The notes below the pieces were generated by a model. That model was not told where the DNA came from. It saw nothing but the letters and a program-made list of their open reading frames with translations, and searched no databases. Below are positions 24,743 to 50,251 of a stretch of 64,000 bases of DNA, piece after piece. The translations under genes and the position numbers were made by a program. This DNA is from Limosilactobacillus reuteri (GTDB lineage Bacteria > Bacillota > Bacilli > Lactobacillales > Lactobacillaceae), in the NCBI RefSeq assembly GCF_020784725.1, contig NZ_JAJGTZ010000037.1, positions 1-64,000 of the forward strand, written 5' to 3'. Position 1 is the first letter of the stretch. Every line of letters starts with the position of its first letter.

Positions 24743-27397
24743 TTACTTATCGAGGTAATCTTTAGCTTGGCTTAAAGCTTCCTTGATTCCGGCTGGATTC
24801 TTTCCACCAGCTTGGGCGAGGTTTGGTCGACCGCCACCGCCACCATTAATAGCTGGCGCAATCGCCTTAATAAGGTCACCGGCTTTTAAGCCTTCCTTAG
24901 TTTTATCATCACTAACAGCCACTAATAAGTTTGCTTTACCATCACTAGCTGTCGCAAGAACAAGAACATCAGAAAGAGCCTTTGAACGCCAAGTATCAGC
25001 AAGTTGCCGTAATTGGCCCATTCCAGCAACTTGAACTTCGGCAGCAATTAAACTTCCATTCTTGGTTGCTTGAACGTTTTCAAAAACATTATTAGCTTGT
25101 TGAGCAGCAATCTTAGCTTGGAGGGCCTCATTTTGCTTTTGAGCTTCCTTAAGTTCATTTTGCAGTGTTTCTACTTGGTGAGGAACCTCCTTAATCTGAG
25201 CAACCTTCAAACTAGCAGCACTCTTTGTTAAGAGGTCATCACGATCTTGGAGGAACTTAAAGGCATCACTGGAAGTTACTGCTTCAATCCGCCGTACTCC
25301 AGCACCAACTCCTCCTTCAGAAACAATCTTGAAGAGACCAAGCTCATTCGTGTTTTTAACATGGTCACCACCACAGAACTCAGTGTTAAAGTCACCAATC
25401 TTAACAACCCGAACCTTATCACCATACTTATCTGAGAACAAGGCGATAGCACCCATTTCCTTAGCAGAATCAATATCAGTTTCCACTGTCTTGACTGGGA
25501 TTTCCTTCCAGATTTGCTCATTAACCATGTTTTCAACCTTCTTAAGGTCCTCAGCAGTTACCTGGCCAAAGTGGTTAAAGTCAAAACGTAAGTAATGTTC
25601 TTCAACTAATGATCCGGCTTGTTGAGTATGACCACCAAGAACGTTCCGTAATGCTTGGTCTAACAAGTGGGTTGCTGTATGGTTCTTTTCAATCTTAAGG
25701 TGACGAATACGGTCAACAACCAGTTTGTAACGAGCACCCTTTTTAATAGGGGCAGTTAATTCTACCCGGTGAAGGTTTTGCTGGTTTGGTGCATGTTGGA
25801 CATCAACCACGCGACCAACTTTTTTACCATAGTTATCAATAATGTCACCAGTATCAGCAACTTGACCTCCCATTTCAGCATAGAATGGGGTCACGTCAAA
25901 AATTAGTTCAATGTTCTTATCATCTGGTTGTGCTTCATCAGCTTGTTGACCATCATGTGCTAAACCAATAACTTTTGCATTATCAACGGTCAAATCAGTG
26001 TAACCAACATATCTGCTATCTTCTTTGAATGAAGTCCACAAATCAGTTTGAACCCCCATCCCGTTATCCATATCACGGGCATTACGAGCACGATTTTGCT
26101 GCTCCGTCATTGCTGCTTGGAAGCCCTTTTCATCAACTGTTAATCCTTCATCTTCGGCATATTCCTTGGTTAATTCAATTGGGAAGCCATAAGTATCATA
26201 AAGCTTAAATGCTGTTCGCCCATCAATTTCGTTGGTCTTATTTTCCTTAGCTTCAGCAATCACGTTATTCAACAAGTTTAATCCGCCATTTAAGGTTGCA
26301 CTAAAGCGATCTTCTTCTGATTCAATAACCGAAGCAATATAGTCAGCATTTTTAAGAACATCAGGATAGTAATCTTCCATGATCTTGCCAACTGTTGGAA
26401 CCATCTTTGCTAAGAATGGTTCATCGATCCCCAGCTTCTTTCCAGCAACAACTGCTCGCCGAAGCAACCGTCGAATAACGTATCCACGACCAACATTTGA
26501 AGGCAAGGCGCCATCCCCGATCGCAAAGGTAATTGTCCGAATATGATCAGCGATAATCTTAAATTGAATATCGTCTTCTTTATTTTGACCATACTTCTTA
26601 GTACCACTAAATTCTTCAGCTTGCTTAATTAATGGCATGAATAGGTCGGTTTCAAAATTAGTAGGGGCATTTTCAAAGATTGAAACAACCCGTTCAAGGC
26701 CCATTCCCGTATCAATATTTTTATGCGGAAGTGGTTCGTAAGTATCTTCTGGCGTATGGTTAAATTGACTAAAGACAATATTCCAAATTTCAAGGTAGCG
26801 TTCATTTTCACCACCAGGATAATTTTCTGGATCATCATCGGCTAAATTATTAAATTCTTGACCACGGTCATAAAAAATTTCTGTATCTGGACCAGATGGA
26901 CCTTGACCAATATCCCAGAAGTTATCTTCATCAGCAATTAGGTGATCTTCAGCAACACCTACTTCACGCCAGCGATTATAAGCGTCATGGTCTTTAGGGT
27001 AATAAGTAATGTATAGCCGTTCAGGATCAAAACCAAACCATTCATCACTTGTTAGTAATTCCCAAGCCCATGGAATTACTTCATTTTTAAAGTAATCACC
27101 AACAGAGAAGTTACCCAACATTTCAAACATAGTATGGTGCCGAGCAGTCTTACCAACATTTTCAATATCGTTCGTCCGAATACTCTTTTGTGAACTTGTC
27201 ATCCGTGGATTCTCAGGAACAACTTTCCCATCAAAGTATTTCTTCATTGTGGCAACCCCAGAGTTAATCCATAGTAATGTTGGATCATTTACTGGAACTA
27301 ATGATGCACTCGGCATAACTTGGTGGCCATGCTCTTCAAAAAACTTCAAGTACATCCGCCGTACTTGAGCACTATTTAGCTTCTTTAACTCTTTCAT
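24743..27397 (-). CDS. alaS: alanyl-tRNA synthetase
   Basis: An 884-residue class II synthetase, full length, charging tRNA-Ala. The catalytic core begins with the SAQVRRMYLKFFEEHGH segment; the editing domain carries HTATHLLDQALR and the CGGDHV zinc-type motif; the C-terminal Gly-rich GGGGGRPNLAQAGG segment is diagnostic. The ATG at 27397 follows AGAAAGGG; in-frame codons farther upstream belong to the T-box leader. Expression is probably controlled by uncharged tRNA-Ala through that leader. Confidence 0.97.
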   Translation of the reverse strand: MKELKKLNSAQVRRMYLKFFEEHGHQVMPSASLVPVNDPTLLWINSGVATMKKYFDGKVVPENPRMTSSQKSIRTNDIENVGKTARHHTMFEMLGNFSVGDYFKNEVIPWAWELLTSDEWFGFDPERLYITYYPKDHDAYNRWREVGVAEDHLIADEDNFWDIGQGPSGPDTEIFYDRGQEFNNLADDDPENYPGGENERYLEIWNIVFSQFNHTPEDTYEPLPHKNIDTGMGLERVVSIFENAPTNFETDLFMPLIKQAEEFSGTKKYGQNKEDDIQFKIIADHIRTITFAIGDGALPSNVGRGYVIRRLLRRAVVAGKKLGIDEPFLAKMVPTVGKIMEDYYPDVLKNADYIASVIESEEDRFSATLNGGLNLLNNVIAEAKENKTNEIDGRTAFKLYDTYGFPIELTKEYAEDEGLTVDEKGFQAAMTEQQNRARNARDMDNGMGVQTDLWTSFKEDSRYVGYTDLTVDNAKVIGLAHDGQQADEAQPDDKNIELIFDVTPFYAEMGGQVADTGDIIDNYGKKVGRVVDVQHAPNQQNLHRVELTAPIKKGARYKLVVDRIRHLKIEKNHTATHLLDQALRNVLGGHTQQAGSLVEEHYLRFDFNHFGQVTAEDLKKVENMVNEQIWKEIPVKTVETDIDSAKEMGAIALFSDKYGDKVRVVKIGDFNTEFCGGDHVKNTNELGLFKIVSEGGVGAGVRRIEAVTSSDAFKFLQDRDDLLTKSAASLKVAQIKEVPHQVETLQNELKEAQKQNEALQAKIAAQQANNVFENVQATKNGSLIAAEVQVAGMGQLRQLADTWRSKALSDVLVLATASDGKANLLVAVSDDKTKEGLKAGDLIKAIAPAINGGGGGRPNLAQAGGKNPAGIKEALSQAKDYLDK

Positions 27398-27625
27398 CAA
27401 ATCGCCCTTTCTAAAACAAAAACCACCATTGCGAATCAGAGACGCCGGATTGACGCGGTACCACTCTGCTTGCAACGATGGAATTCGTTTACCTCTTTAC
27501 TTCTTGGTTGCCCAAGGTTAAATATCAAATTATCCGAATGGGGAGCACTAAGGCTAGGAAATCAGTTGTCACACCTTACCAACTGTCTCTGAAATTTTCC
27601 ATTAGTTATAGCATGTCCCAAACGT
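27398..27625 (-). promoter_or_regulatory. T-box leader of alaS
   Basis: A minus-strand T-box riboswitch between the alaS promoter and ATG. The core AGTGGTACCGCG (about 27455-27467) is the tRNA-acceptor-binding T-box; its variable base T fits A73 of tRNA-Ala. A terminator follows, pairing ACCGCG...ATC with GATT-CGC-AATGGT ahead of GGTTTTTG (about 27414-27465). Stem I shows the AGAGA bulge and a CAGTTG/CAACTG arm. A GCT at 27544-27546 is a possible alanine specifier. Confidence 0.85.
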
Positions 27626-27630
27626 GTCAT

Positions 27631-47024: not shown

Positions 47025-47065
47025 TAATAAAGGGCAGAGACTATTTTCCAAGTCCCTGCTCTTCT
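47025..47065 (-). terminator. terminator of the amino-acid ABC operon
   Basis: GGGCAGAGACT (47032-47042) pairs with AGTCCCTGCTC (47051-47061) with a single mismatch; CTTTATTATTT follows on the minus strand, just past the substrate-binding protein gene. Confidence 0.78.
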
Positions 47066-47916
47066 TATTTAGTGTTATCTGGTCCCAAGTAGTTACTATC
47101 TTGACCGAACCATTTTTCATTAAGCTTCCGTAATTCACCGTTTTTCTGCAGATTACCTAACCCTTGATTAATTTTCTTCTTTAAGGTCTTGTCACCTTTT
47201 CGCATTCCCACCGCAAAATGTTCCATTGGCAACTCTTTACTAAGATATGTACGATATGAATTGCTATTTGGTTGGTGCTTGATATAGTAATTAGCATAAA
47301 CCTCATCCATTAAAATCCCTTGAATTCGATTTGCATTTAAATCAATGAATGCATTAGGAAACGTATCATAAAGTACTGGTGTATGATTCTTTATTTTATC
47401 TTTTAACAATTTTGGCTTCTCATCCAAAACGGTAACTCCGGTAGAACCATTCTGTACCCCGAGTGTTTTGCCCGTCATTCCGTTCAAATTTTTAATGTTA
47501 CTCTTCTTTTTAGTTACTAATACCTGCCGATTTTCTAAATAGTAACGACTAAAGGCAACTTTTTTGGCGCGGCTAGGATTAACAGAATAACCATTCCATA
47601 GCAAGTCAATCGTACCGTTTTTTAGCTCAGTCTCTTTCATTGACCAATCAATTGGCTGAAAATCAACCTTTATCCCATACTGCTTAAAAACAGCGCGTGC
47701 AAGATCAACATCATAACCAACTAGCTTCCCATTCTTTTGACGAAAACCCATTGGCACAAAGCTATCATCAAGACCAACAATCACTCTTTTTCGGCGCTCG
47801 ATCCGGTTCCATGTATCTTGCGTATCAGCACGCTTTGTTACACTTTCACAGCCACTAAGAAGGAGAACAGGTACTACTAACAAAATAAGTAACCAAATTG
47901 CTTTCGCTTTTTTCAT
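47065..47916 (-). CDS. amino-acid ABC transporter substrate-binding lipoprotein
   Basis: A 283-residue type 3 solute-binding protein. The N-terminal signal ends in LLLSGCES, a lipobox with the lipid-anchored Cys near residue 23. The GYDVDLARAVFKQYG, DLLWNGYSV and PMEHFAVGMRKGD segments are typical of polar amino-acid binding proteins. Substrate cannot be read from the sequence; the T-box leader upstream hints at histidine, with a caveat given there. ATG at 47916 behind GAGAGGAG. Last gene of the operon. Confidence 0.88.
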   Translation of the reverse strand: MKKAKAIWLLILLVVPVLLLSGCESVTKRADTQDTWNRIERRKRVIVGLDDSFVPMGFRQKNGKLVGYDVDLARAVFKQYGIKVDFQPIDWSMKETELKNGTIDLLWNGYSVNPSRAKKVAFSRYYLENRQVLVTKKKSNIKNLNGMTGKTLGVQNGSTGVTVLDEKPKLLKDKIKNHTPVLYDTFPNAFIDLNANRIQGILMDEVYANYYIKHQPNSNSYRTYLSKELPMEHFAVGMRKGDKTLKKKINQGLGNLQKNGELRKLNEKWFGQDSNYLGPDNTK

Positions 47917-47933
47917 CAGTATTTCTCCTCTCA

Positions 47934-48584
47934 CTATTTATTCTGACGTTGATCAAGTGGTTGTACTCGTAAAATATCATCAGCAATATCCTCGGCAAAC
48001 TCTAAATCGTGAGTAACAATTAATTGAGTCATTCCGTCCTTCTTTAATCCCAAAATAATATTAGCCACATCTTTTCGGAGGTTTGGATCAAGCGCTGATG
48101 TCGGTTCATCATAACACAAAATTTTAGGCTTCATTGCTAATGCACGGGCAATTGCAACCCGTTGCTTTTGGCCACCTGAAAGTTGGTAGGGGTACAATTT
48201 CCCTTTTGTATTAAGCCCTAATTCTTCAAGCAGTTTTTGCGCATCAGCAATGGCTTCTTGTTTATCCTTTTTCAATACCATCATCGGCGCTAACGTGATA
48301 TTTTCCATTACTGAAAGATTTGGGAAAAGCTTAAAGTCTTGAAAAACCACACCAATTACCCGGTCAACTGCATCTGTTCCCTGAGGGTCAAATCGATGAC
48401 CGTTAATGAAAAACTCACCACTATCGGGAGTTTCCAGTCCAGTAATACAACGAAGTAAGGTCGTTTTCCCAGCACCTGATGGACCAACAATACAAAGAAT
48501 CTCACCATCTTTAACAGTTAAATTAACCCCATCTAAAATTTGCCGATCGCCAAAACTCTTTTTTAAATCTCGAACTTCTAACAT
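47934..48584 (-). CDS. amino-acid ABC transporter ATP-binding protein
   Basis: A 216-residue nucleotide-binding subunit of the GlnQ/HisP class. Walker A is GPSGAGKTT (34-42), the signature LSGGQKQR (about 136-143), and Walker B LCYDEPTSALDP. It is somewhat shorter at the C-terminus than the usual 240 residues. It lies between permease and binding-protein genes. Confidence 0.94.
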   Translation of the reverse strand: MLEVRDLKKSFGDRQILDGVNLTVKDGEILCIVGPSGAGKTTLLRCITGLETPDSGEFFINGHRFDPQGTDAVDRVIGVVFQDFKLFPNLSVMENITLAPMMVLKKDKQEAIADAQKLLEELGLNTKGKLYPYQLSGGQKQRVAIARALAMKPKILCYDEPTSALDPNLRKDVANIILGLKKDGMTQLIVTHDLEFAEDIADDILRVQPLDQRQNK

Positions 48585-48598
48585 TCAGATTCCCTCCT

Positions 48599-49246
48599 TT
48601 ACTTGAAGTATGCATAACATTTTTCAACTTGCCGTAGAATTAATGTACAAATTCCTACAAGGATCAAGTAGATTAATCCGACTAACATCAATGGGACAAG
48701 CGTGACATCCCGTGAAGTTGCAACGTTTCCTGCTCGAAGTAAATCGCCGAGACCAATTACGTAAACTAACGATGAATCTTTTACTAAGTTAATAACTTCA
48801 TTTCCAATTGATGGAATAACGATTTTTATTACCTGAGGAATGATGATTTTACGAAGGGTTTGCCAGTAGCTTAGTCGTAAAACACGAGCTGCTTCAAACT
48901 GACCTTGATCAACAGATTGAAAACCACCACGGAAAATTTCAGCAAAATAAGCTGCATAGTTCAAAATAAAAGCAACTAGGGCGGCATCGTAACGTTCAAA
49001 AACAATGCCAATAATTGGTAATCCATAGAATACAAAGATTAGTTGAAGCAGTAAAGGCGTTCCCCGCATTAACCAAACATAAATTTCTAATATCCACTTC
49101 AAAGGCTTAATTTTAGAAGTAAGCCCTAAGCTAACCAAAATCCCTAATGGCAAAGATCCAACTAATGTCCAGAAGAAAATTTGTAATGTAAGAGCAGCCC
49201 CTTGAAATAATGAAGGTAGAATTTCACTTATATATTGCATTGACAT
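48599..49246 (-). CDS. amino-acid ABC transporter permease
   Basis: A 215-residue inner-membrane permease of the HisM/GlnP class. It has five or so helices and the EAA-type loop AARVLRLSYWQTLRKIIIPQ. AAGGAGG sits nine bases before the ATG at 49246. First gene of the operon, under a long T-box leader. Confidence 0.94.
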   Translation of the reverse strand: MSMQYISEILPSLFQGAALTLQIFFWTLVGSLPLGILVSLGLTSKIKPLKWILEIYVWLMRGTPLLLQLIFVFYGLPIIGIVFERYDAALVAFILNYAAYFAEIFRGGFQSVDQGQFEAARVLRLSYWQTLRKIIIPQVIKIVIPSIGNEVINLVKDSSLVYVIGLGDLLRAGNVATSRDVTLVPLMLVGLIYLILVGICTLILRQVEKCYAYFK

Positions 49247-49294
49247 TTACTATTGCCTCCTTAAATTATTGAGTAATAGAAATAACAGGAAAAG

Positions 49295-49325
49295 AAAAAT
49301 CCTCTAGGAGATACCTCCTAGAGGA
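49295..49325 (-). terminator. second T-box terminator
   Basis: Perfect 11-base stem TCCTCTAGGAG (49300-49310) with CTCCTAGAGGA (49315-49325), four-base loop, T-run after it on the minus strand. Strong enough to stop transcription unless the second T-box antiterminator forms. Confidence 0.88.
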
Positions 49326-49401
49326 CGAGTACATCGTGGTTCCACCTCATGTTTACAAATATTTCACAATATTTGCCTTAATAAGTCTATTTTAATGAAA
49401 C

Positions 49402-49440
49402 AAAAAAACACCCTCGAGCCTAAACTGGCTACGAGGGCGT
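49402..49440 (-). terminator. first T-box terminator
   Basis: CCCTCGAGCC (49411-49420) pairs with GGCT (49427-49430) and CGAGGG (49432-49437) with one bulged base, followed on the minus strand by seven T. Confidence 0.88.
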
Positions 49441-49676
49441 TTCCGCGGTTCCACCTCATCTTGCTATTTTCTCACGAATAATAGCCTTAGTGAGTTCATT
49501 AAAATAAACTCCGCGCTGTAACGGGCTTCCCCGGGTCTTCCTACTATGGCTTTCAGAAGGCCAACTCACAGATGTGATTCAAACCAAAGCATCGATCCCT
49601 TCCCATCATTAAGGACTCTCTTTGCAATGCTTAAAGCTCTACTAGTCTGTTCCCTGTCATTTATGATATTGTAAAT

Positions 49677-49705
49677 ATCCTATACTGGAATATCTATTGT
49701 GTCAA
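49677..49705 (-). promoter_or_regulatory. promoter of the T-box/ABC operon
   Basis: Minus-strand TTGACA (49700-49705), 17-base spacer, TAGGAT (49677-49682), just after the mreD stop. Confidence 0.72.
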
Positions 49706-49714
49706 GCACTAATT

Positions 49715-50251
49715 TTAAATTTGATCATCGTTTAATGCCCAGCGATATATTGCGCGAATTGGCCAGAAGAGGACAACAAAATAAATTAAATTTAATGCTA
49801 ACGTTGGAGCAAGCGTATAAATAAGATAGTCGCCAAAACCAACATTAGTAATATTTACTAAATAATATGCCCAATAATTAAAGGTCTCAAAAATGACAAT
49901 ATCAACAAAGAAAATCATAATCATCGAAAGAAATGATGAACTAAAATAACGAGATAAAATTTTAGTTATTTCTACCACTAATGGATACAAGAAAATATAT
50001 AATCCTAAAATTCCTGAAAAGTATAAATCATAAACTGCACCGGCAGCAATTGCAAATGGAATTAATGGAATCTCAATATCATCTTGAAAGAAATATGATA
50101 AAACTAACCATAGTAAGACAAGTTCACTTACCATTGAATAGGGATAACTGAAAAATAATGGTGCCCACACATGGCTTAAGGCTCCGTCCAAAAACAGACA
50201 TACAAATAAACCAATTGGGAATATATATTTTAAGCGTGATAAACGATACAT
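49715..50251 (-). CDS. mreD: rod shape-determining protein MreD
   Basis: A 178-residue membrane protein with five or six helices, in the mreBCD order. It shows the MreD-type pattern of an Asp-containing first helix (LFLDGALSHV) and a YDLYFSGILGLY segment. It supports the elongation machinery that guides sidewall peptidoglycan synthesis. It starts seven bases after mreC. Confidence 0.9.
   Translation of the reverse strand: MYRLSRLKYIFPIGLFVCLFLDGALSHVWAPLFFSYPYSMVSELVLLWLVLSYFFQDDIEIPLIPFAIAAGAVYDLYFSGILGLYIFLYPLVVEITKILSRYFSSSFLSMIMIFFVDIVIFETFNYWAYYLVNITNVGFGDYLIYTLAPTLALNLIYFVVLFWPIRAIYRWALNDDQI

Follow-up and report, generated by a model that had tools for sequence, protein, structure and literature searches.

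A partly tandem histidine T-box leader in Limosilactobacillus reuteri with a conserved alternative helix that may link its two antiterminator-terminator units

Genomic context of the leader

Our analysis concerned a window of 64,000 nucleotides of Limosilactobacillus reuteri DNA (positions 1 to 64,000 of contig NZ_JAJGTZ010000037.1, assembly GCF_020784725.1), in which a leader with two T-box units is encoded on the minus strand, flanked by mreD (49715-50251) and by an operon for a permease, an ATPase and a binding protein (49246-47065; Table 1). The genes are arranged like those of the hisYZX transporter, which T-boxes regulate in many Lactobacillales according to the parts of PMC9413887 cited here, and none of the three proteins matched a histidine-specific NCBIfam equivalog at cut-off. 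The permease is identical over its 215 residues to that of Limosilactobacillus agrestis. The genome (99.96% complete) contains a tRNA-His (GTG), and it gave no match to hisD, because of which this L. reuteri is probably a histidine auxotroph. T-boxes are heavily used in its 2.0 Mb; there were 26 matches to the T-box model RF00230 at E-values of 0.001 or less, 13 of them above cut-off, and two of the 26 are the two units of the leader described here. A further T-box within the window (27435-27627, minus strand; 43.6 bits, below the gathering score) is located upstream of an alanyl-tRNA-synthetase-like frame (24743-27475), a gene we named by eye.

Anatomy of the leader

The first unit is a T-box leader that covers the full RF00230 model and exceeds its gathering score of 93, while the second is a partial match (49378-49321, minus strand; E-value 7.2e-4 in the search of the whole genome) that scored better, at 28.7 bits and 5.4e-5, when positions 49240-49440 were searched alone. 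As this second match covers only model positions 162-216, it includes neither Stem I nor Stem II, and no further full T-box, equipped with a Stem I and a specifier, was found there. A sequence-only reading of this DNA had proposed one Stem I followed by two related antiterminator-terminator units, with T-boxes about 110 bases apart, and the searches bear this out: the GGTGG cores start at 49455 and 49346, i.e., 109 nt apart, the blocks TAAGGC, ATTATT/ATATT, GTGA and ATGAGGTGGAACC recur in both units, and both terminators are predicted to be strong. We regard it as confirmed that the window holds two such related units and one Stem I before one operon. The distance from terminator 1 to the second T-box is only ~57 nt, Stem III-2 included.

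Table 1. Features of the two-unit leader and its operon (coordinates within the window)
Feature	Position	Strand	Evidence or remark
Promoter-like site TTGACA-17-TAGGAT	49677-49705	-	Consensus scan 10/12; consensus match only
Complete T-box leader (Stem I, Stem II, IIA/B, Stem III-1, antiterminator 1)	49430-49663	-	RF00230, 97.1 bits, model 1-219
Specifier codon CAC (His)	49574-49576	-	By eye in RF00230 alignment, after GAA-U, before A
Hairpin H0, 8 bp, 4-nt loop, between F-box and Stem III-1	49492-49511	-	MFE of growing transcript before the invading strand
Strand alpha (H0 5' strand, loop, start of H0 3' strand)	49495-49511	-	Common to both alternative helices
Stem III-1	49463-49485	-	MFE and RF00230 alignment
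Antiterminator 1, T-box bulge UGGAACC (49453-49447)	49433-49457	-	RF00230 alignment, constrained fold
Terminator 1 and U-run	49402-49443	-	-25.7 kcal/mol (predicted)
Putative invading strand alpha'2, 17-bp complement of alpha	49383-49399	-	Covariation in relatives; stops directly before Stem III-2 flank
Stem III-2	49356-49375	-	MFE
Antiterminator 2, T-box bulge UGGAACC (49344-49338)	49321-49348	-	Partial RF00230 match (model 162-216, 25.8 bits), constrained fold
Terminator 2 and U-rich tail	49289-49326	-	-20.3 kcal/mol (predicted); sole terminator-like site of scan
Amino-acid ABC permease (hisY position), first gene	48599-49246	-	Pfam BPD_transp_1; NCBIfam HEQRo_perm_3TM above cut-off
ABC ATPase (hisZ position)	47934-48584	-	Pfam ABC_tran
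Solute-binding protein (hisX position)	47065-47934	-	Pfam SBP_bac_3

Judged by its specifier, read by eye, and by the hisYZX-like order of the genes that follow, in a genome with the matching tRNA, the leader is a histidine T-box. The earlier description of the genes as an amino-acid ABC operon holds and is narrowed by this to a hisYZX-like operon; it had given neither the strand nor the amino acid, nor the exchange element described below. At the gathering cut-off RF00230 reports the leader as a single T-box, so annotations of this kind should be read with caution. How doubles can be missed is also shown by a non-His leader (L105, 1868-1482, minus strand), in which the RF00230 alignment treats the first unit as an insertion and takes the second as the antiterminator.

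Distribution of two-unit leaders

When two exact cores were required to start 87-117 nt apart, the pattern matched 47 of 395 Lactobacillales genomes, in 16 of 80 genera, against no match to the reversed control pattern in the same 395 genomes. At each of the 47 places, one of which is that in the window, a relative of the window permease follows, and the pattern occurs once in the genome of the window itself. With starts 118-148 nt apart the pattern was present in 23 of the 395 genomes, and 19 of the 20 loci that we fetched from this wider-spaced set again precede a relative of the permease. The remaining one (L225, a relative at the level of Lactobacillaceae) has a double unit with cores 126 nt apart before a 463-residue frame other than the window permease, which looks like an amino-acid permease of another family. 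When we started instead from the permease, the best 80 loci among the relatives listed, searched with one motif mismatch allowed, comprised 31 short doubles, three wider pairs (163, 283 and 286 nt), 11 loci with a single core and 35 with none.

Outside Lactobacillales we found the pattern in 26 of 398 genomes of the phylum (the genome of the window counted), the reversed pattern giving one match there, in a different genome, and in 29 of 63 genomes of one other class. These doubles precede frames that by eye resemble 3-deoxy-7-phosphoheptulonate synthase, anthranilate synthase, trpD, sodium:solute symporters and CoA ligases; six of eight 60-residue starts of such frames matched NCBIfam models, with scores below the whole-protein cut-offs. 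Elsewhere, then, doubles precede genes for aromatic amino acids, and their specifiers, where read, are those of Phe and Trp.

Both units as potential switches

In predicted folds of the window each unit can form a terminator and an overlapping antiterminator, and in the first the UGGN bulge is accompanied by an antiterminator and a terminator that are mutually exclusive. Among relatives, terminator 1 was found in all 66 pattern-found His doubles and all 49 non-His doubles, and terminator 2 in every one of the former and in 48 of the latter. Median values in the His doubles were -18.0 for terminator 1 and -19.0 for terminator 2, these being raw fold energies, and the weakest second terminators reached only -3.6 kcal/mol in the motif-found doubles and -4.3 kcal/mol in the permease-found sample. 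Antiterminator energies were left unused because many of the scored segments included part of the next hairpin. We rejected the idea that the second unit is a chance match or a decayed remnant, based on the distribution of the pattern, the permease neighborhood, and the T-box and terminator that are kept.

The second unit might nevertheless be a passive back-up terminator, a duplication remnant deaf to tRNA, and the predicted strength of terminator 2 in the window would suit such a role. This we consider highly improbable, as all 31 doubles found through the permease keep the terminator and also the T-box bulge (with at most one mismatch to the motif), as the UGGN base agrees between the units of every non-His double (see below), and as a plain terminator would hold the genes off during starvation too.

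The tRNA read by the second unit

The variable base of UGGN is equal between the two units in 49 of 49 non-His doubles (44 U/U and 5 C/C). We read the specifier by eye on the RF00230 alignments in seven of these 49 (L119 had no RF00230 match and L118 was left out): the C/C leaders L110, L117 and L128 have UGG (Trp), and the U/U leaders L105, L112, L120 and L123 have UUC (Phe). In all seven the UGGN base fits the tRNA named by the single specifier, as C fits G73 of tRNA-Trp (entries of TBDB) and U the A73 that we read by eye in tRNA-Phe of the L. reuteri genome. In His doubles the base is equal in 48 of 66 and different in 18 of 66. This greater freedom is expected if C73 of tRNA-His is paired, as given in entries of TBDB, and in the tRNA-His of the L. 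reuteri genome C73 seems by eye to pair with G-1; for the His leaders we therefore no longer took an equal UGGN base to prove that both units use one tRNA. To judge from these sequences taken together, the second unit seems to read the same tRNA as the first.

The sequence-only reading had left two options, that a single codon-reading arm controls two consecutive decisions, or that the second unit senses acceptor ends with less codon specificity. The first is favored by the UGGN agreement, the seven fitting specifiers and the conserved strand exchange described below, and the second is disfavored. In its fuller form the second would mean two tRNAs and two independent decisions, in which unit 2 captures another uncharged acceptor end without Stem I and with little codon specificity. 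Although the discriminator domain of unit 2 is complete (Stem III and T-box bulge) and Stem I is lacking there, we think this unlikely, since it leaves the covarying alpha/alpha'2 helix and its register without a reason, and since the T-boxes that have been studied need Stem I together with Stem II for tight binding of tRNA, according to part of a review.

An alternative helix of H0 with the strand that follows terminator 1

Between the IIA/B pseudoknot with the F-box and Stem III-1 lies the hairpin H0, and the strand directly 3' of terminator 1 can pair with both the 5' arm and the loop of this hairpin. In the window the resulting alternative helix pairs 49511-49495 with 49399-49383 over 17 bp and is longer than H0. 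MFE folds of the growing transcript had H0 at the three stages that precede alpha'2 and the 17-bp helix at the four that follow it, and in a 151-nt piece the forced long helix was predicted at -57.4 kcal/mol vs -49.6 for forced H0. In the last two of these unconstrained stages, folded without tRNA or pseudoknot, Stem I was rearranged and antiterminator 2 was absent.

To compare the two linkers across species we computed duplexes between linker A, which follows the F-box, and linker B, which follows terminator 1. In the 66 His doubles the median was -19.6, vs -12.4 when B was taken from other species and -12.1 when B was shuffled, and 40 of 66 fell in the best 2% of 50 shuffles. The 31 permease-found doubles gave -21.1 (vs -13.2 and -13.3, respectively; 20 of 31 in the best 2%) and the 49 non-His doubles -23.6 (vs -15.9 and -14.1), with only 21 of 49 in the best 2%. 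Shuffles for these duplexes were approximately dinucleotide-preserving; those for the single-T-box, non-His anchored, MFE and single-His tests were mononucleotide shuffles. Linker A paired with the region after terminator 2 had a median of only -9.3 vs -19.2 with B. No exchange helix was apparent in single T-boxes of the L. reuteri genome (none of 19 ranked in the best 2%, another five of the 24 tried having no recognized core) or in single His leaders (0 of 10; 11 tried, one without a terminator).

We then scored base pairs in fixed columns. The 97 His leaders (66 + 31) reduced to 91 distinct ones, the window falling outside the 91 because both its anchored strands equal those of another leader that was retained. 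Fixed, ungapped anchors were used in place of a search for the best helix, because picking the best helix biases the counts; the offset was the best of 144 and misses the Limosilactobacillus register by as much as 2 nt, which lowers the paired count. Relatedness was handled by register shifts and by permutation within families, which we assigned manually from names and titles. Over eight columns 82.4% of positions were paired, vs 60.9 +/- 1.5% with permuted partners (0/1000 permutations), and over 12 columns 77.4%, vs 32.5-47.3% in shifted registers. The two strands covary; pair 1, for instance, is AU in 22 leaders, GC in 18, CG in 16, UA in 13 and GU in eight. The sequences themselves differ by genus, e.g., GGAGUUUAGUGAUAA in Lactiplantibacillus, GGAGUUGCUUGC in Levilactobacillus, GUGGUCAAUAAG or GUGGUUGAAAAAC in Lacticaseibacillus and GAAGUUAUUGUAA in Companilactobacillus, each with its own complement downstream (with one G-U pair in Levilactobacillus); Leuconostoc (L171) falls outside the fixed register of this comparison.

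Permutation within families retained the excess for pairs 1-6 (84.6 vs 70.1%, 0/1000) and for pairs 7-12 on the loop side of H0 (70.1 vs 48.4%, 0/1000). For pairs 7-12 it was pronounced in the 53 leaders of Lactobacillaceae and others (76.4 vs 44.3%, 0/1000) and weak in the 38 of Enterococcaceae type (61.4 vs 54.1%, 12/1000). An anchored test of the non-His doubles (32 of 49 usable) gave 97.9 vs 92.8% at the base and 74.9 vs 65.7% on the loop side (0/500 each). One strand of H0 has two alternative, covarying partners, with the loop side weaker in the Enterococcaceae-type and non-His leaders. These loop-side pairs bear on whether alpha'2 might be a by-product of duplication that merely copies the 3' strand of H0. 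The base of alpha'2 does resemble that strand, and the two Stem IIIs have similar flanks. However, alpha'2 is complementary to the loop of H0 as well and changes with it from species to species, which would not be expected of a copied 3' strand, and we find this explanation scarcely credible.

In 90 of 91 His leaders the long helix exceeds H0 in predicted stability. In MFE folds from the F-box on, at least 6 bp of it formed in 86 of 91 His leaders vs 119 of 455 with shuffled B, and in 37 of 47 non-His leaders vs 65 of 235; it was absent from five and 10 leaders, respectively. Before B is included, H0 (at least 4 bp) was present in 73 of 91 His and 39 of 47 non-His leaders and missing from 18 and eight. 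Terminator 1 was kept in every one of these folds (91/91 and 47/47).

The modeled long helix loops out unit 1 and puts Stem III-2 in the register of Stem III-1. Measured to its own Stem III, alpha pairs in the same register with the H0 3' strand and with alpha'2 (84.6 and 85.7%, against 48.1 and 51.9% at the second-best offsets), from which it would follow that unit 2 takes the place of unit 1. From the end of alpha'2 to that of the terminator 2 stem there are 84 nt. A scaffold might account for this, if the long helix insulated unit 1 from unit 2, prevented misfolding or stabilized the RNA with no tRNA being moved; any helix closing off unit 1 would do likewise, and terminator 1 is paired in all 91 predicted His folds. 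Insulation, however, needs neither the equal register of the two Stem IIIs nor the H0 strand in particular, and we do not believe a scaffold alone to be a likely account.

Several single T-boxes have an H0-like hairpin between F-box and Stem III (by eye, L002, L006 and L010 of the L. reuteri genome, and L153 and L164), because of which H0 looks older in these comparisons, the invading strand having apparently come with the second unit. The consensus structure of RF00230 contains no helix between F-box and Stem III.

A strand-exchange relay as a working model

We think it reasonably probable that antiterminator 1 and then, via strand exchange, antiterminator 2 test a single tRNA held on a single Stem I. 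At the stage of unit 1, H0 would join the IIA/B pseudoknot to Stem III-1 and set antiterminator 1 at the 3' end of the tRNA; an uncharged tRNA would stabilize antiterminator 1, and RNA polymerase would pass terminator 1. Emerging alpha'2 would then pair with the 5' strand and loop of H0, evict the local partner and form the longer helix. Unit 1 would be looped out, such that terminator 1 may fold harmlessly, and Stem III-2 would receive the register that Stem III-1 had held. Antiterminator 2 would retest the tRNA still held by Stem I and Stem II, and the transporter genes would be reached only if it is still uncharged. The relay fits the order of synthesis, because alpha'2 leaves RNA polymerase right after terminator 1. 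From the computed anatomy, the two switches, the alternative helix with its covariation, the equal register and the absence of the helix from the single-unit leaders tested, we infer a timely exchange, hand-over of the same tRNA, a tRNA response of both terminators and a tighter off state. If an uncharged 3' end is needed at each pass, leak in fed cells should multiply down; the lower leak and sharper response that had been expected of two units are plausible under the model, and the earlier interpretation as a whole is partly supported.

Relation to known systems

Vitreschak et al. are said to have described, in RNA in 2008, a new structural class of T-boxes with duplicated terminator-antiterminator elements. 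The leader very probably belongs to this class, the partly tandem T-boxes, which likewise have one Stem I and two antiterminator-terminator units, here with the second antiterminator and terminator downstream of a full T-box and no second Stem I or Stem II. Their mode of action is called unknown in the cited part of a 2020 specialist review (PMC7583486). To this class our leader adds the conserved strand-exchange helix of H0 with the linker after terminator 1. We found no description of strand exchange in tandem T-boxes in the portions available to us of the open-licence PMC literature (including PMC7583486, PMC7778990, PMC2494555, PMC9413887, PMC9481103, PMC12452182 and PMC10482949); it may be in print in Vitreschak 2008, Gutierrez-Preciado 2009 or Kreuzer and Henkin 2018. 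Within that literature, the architecture is of a known kind and the conserved exchange helix is the new element here.

A survey of His T-boxes (PMC9413887) reports, in the parts cited, that most leaders carry a single T-box and that in five Enterococcus species tandem T-boxes precede the histidine transporter. Such fully tandem T-boxes also make two serial decisions before the same kind of operon, but each unit has its own Stem I and specifier, whereas the second unit in the window has neither. We observed two more, in Enterococcus sp. 5H (L158) and Vagococcus bubulae (L159), each with two full-model matches upstream of the permease and with cores 286 and 283 nt apart, respectively. Single His T-boxes before hisYZX (e.g., L164 of Listeria farberi and L190 of Bombilactobacillus) share the target operon, the anatomy of unit 1 and an H0-like hairpin, but have no second unit and no H0-complementary strand (0 of 10). 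Tandem riboswitches and tandem aptamers also place serial terminators or serial sensing in one leader; as described in the cited parts of PMC9481103 and PMC12452182, they have an aptamer for each platform or several aptamers for one platform, in contrast to the one aptamer and two platforms of the window.

The conserved alternative helix provides a concrete mechanism that can be tested by mutants of one short strand. Whether the design is a general one, in which a branch-migrating helix common to both hands one aptamer, during transcription, from a first expression platform to a second for a proofreading-like double test of the tRNA, kept with compensating changes in the His leaders of Lactobacillaceae and Enterococcaceae and with an analogous design in Phe and Trp T-boxes of other classes, we would put at about an even chance. 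If true, these leaders would be a natural case of one sensor with two switches in series driven by RNA strand displacement, which would be useful for understanding tight off states and for the design of RNA devices.
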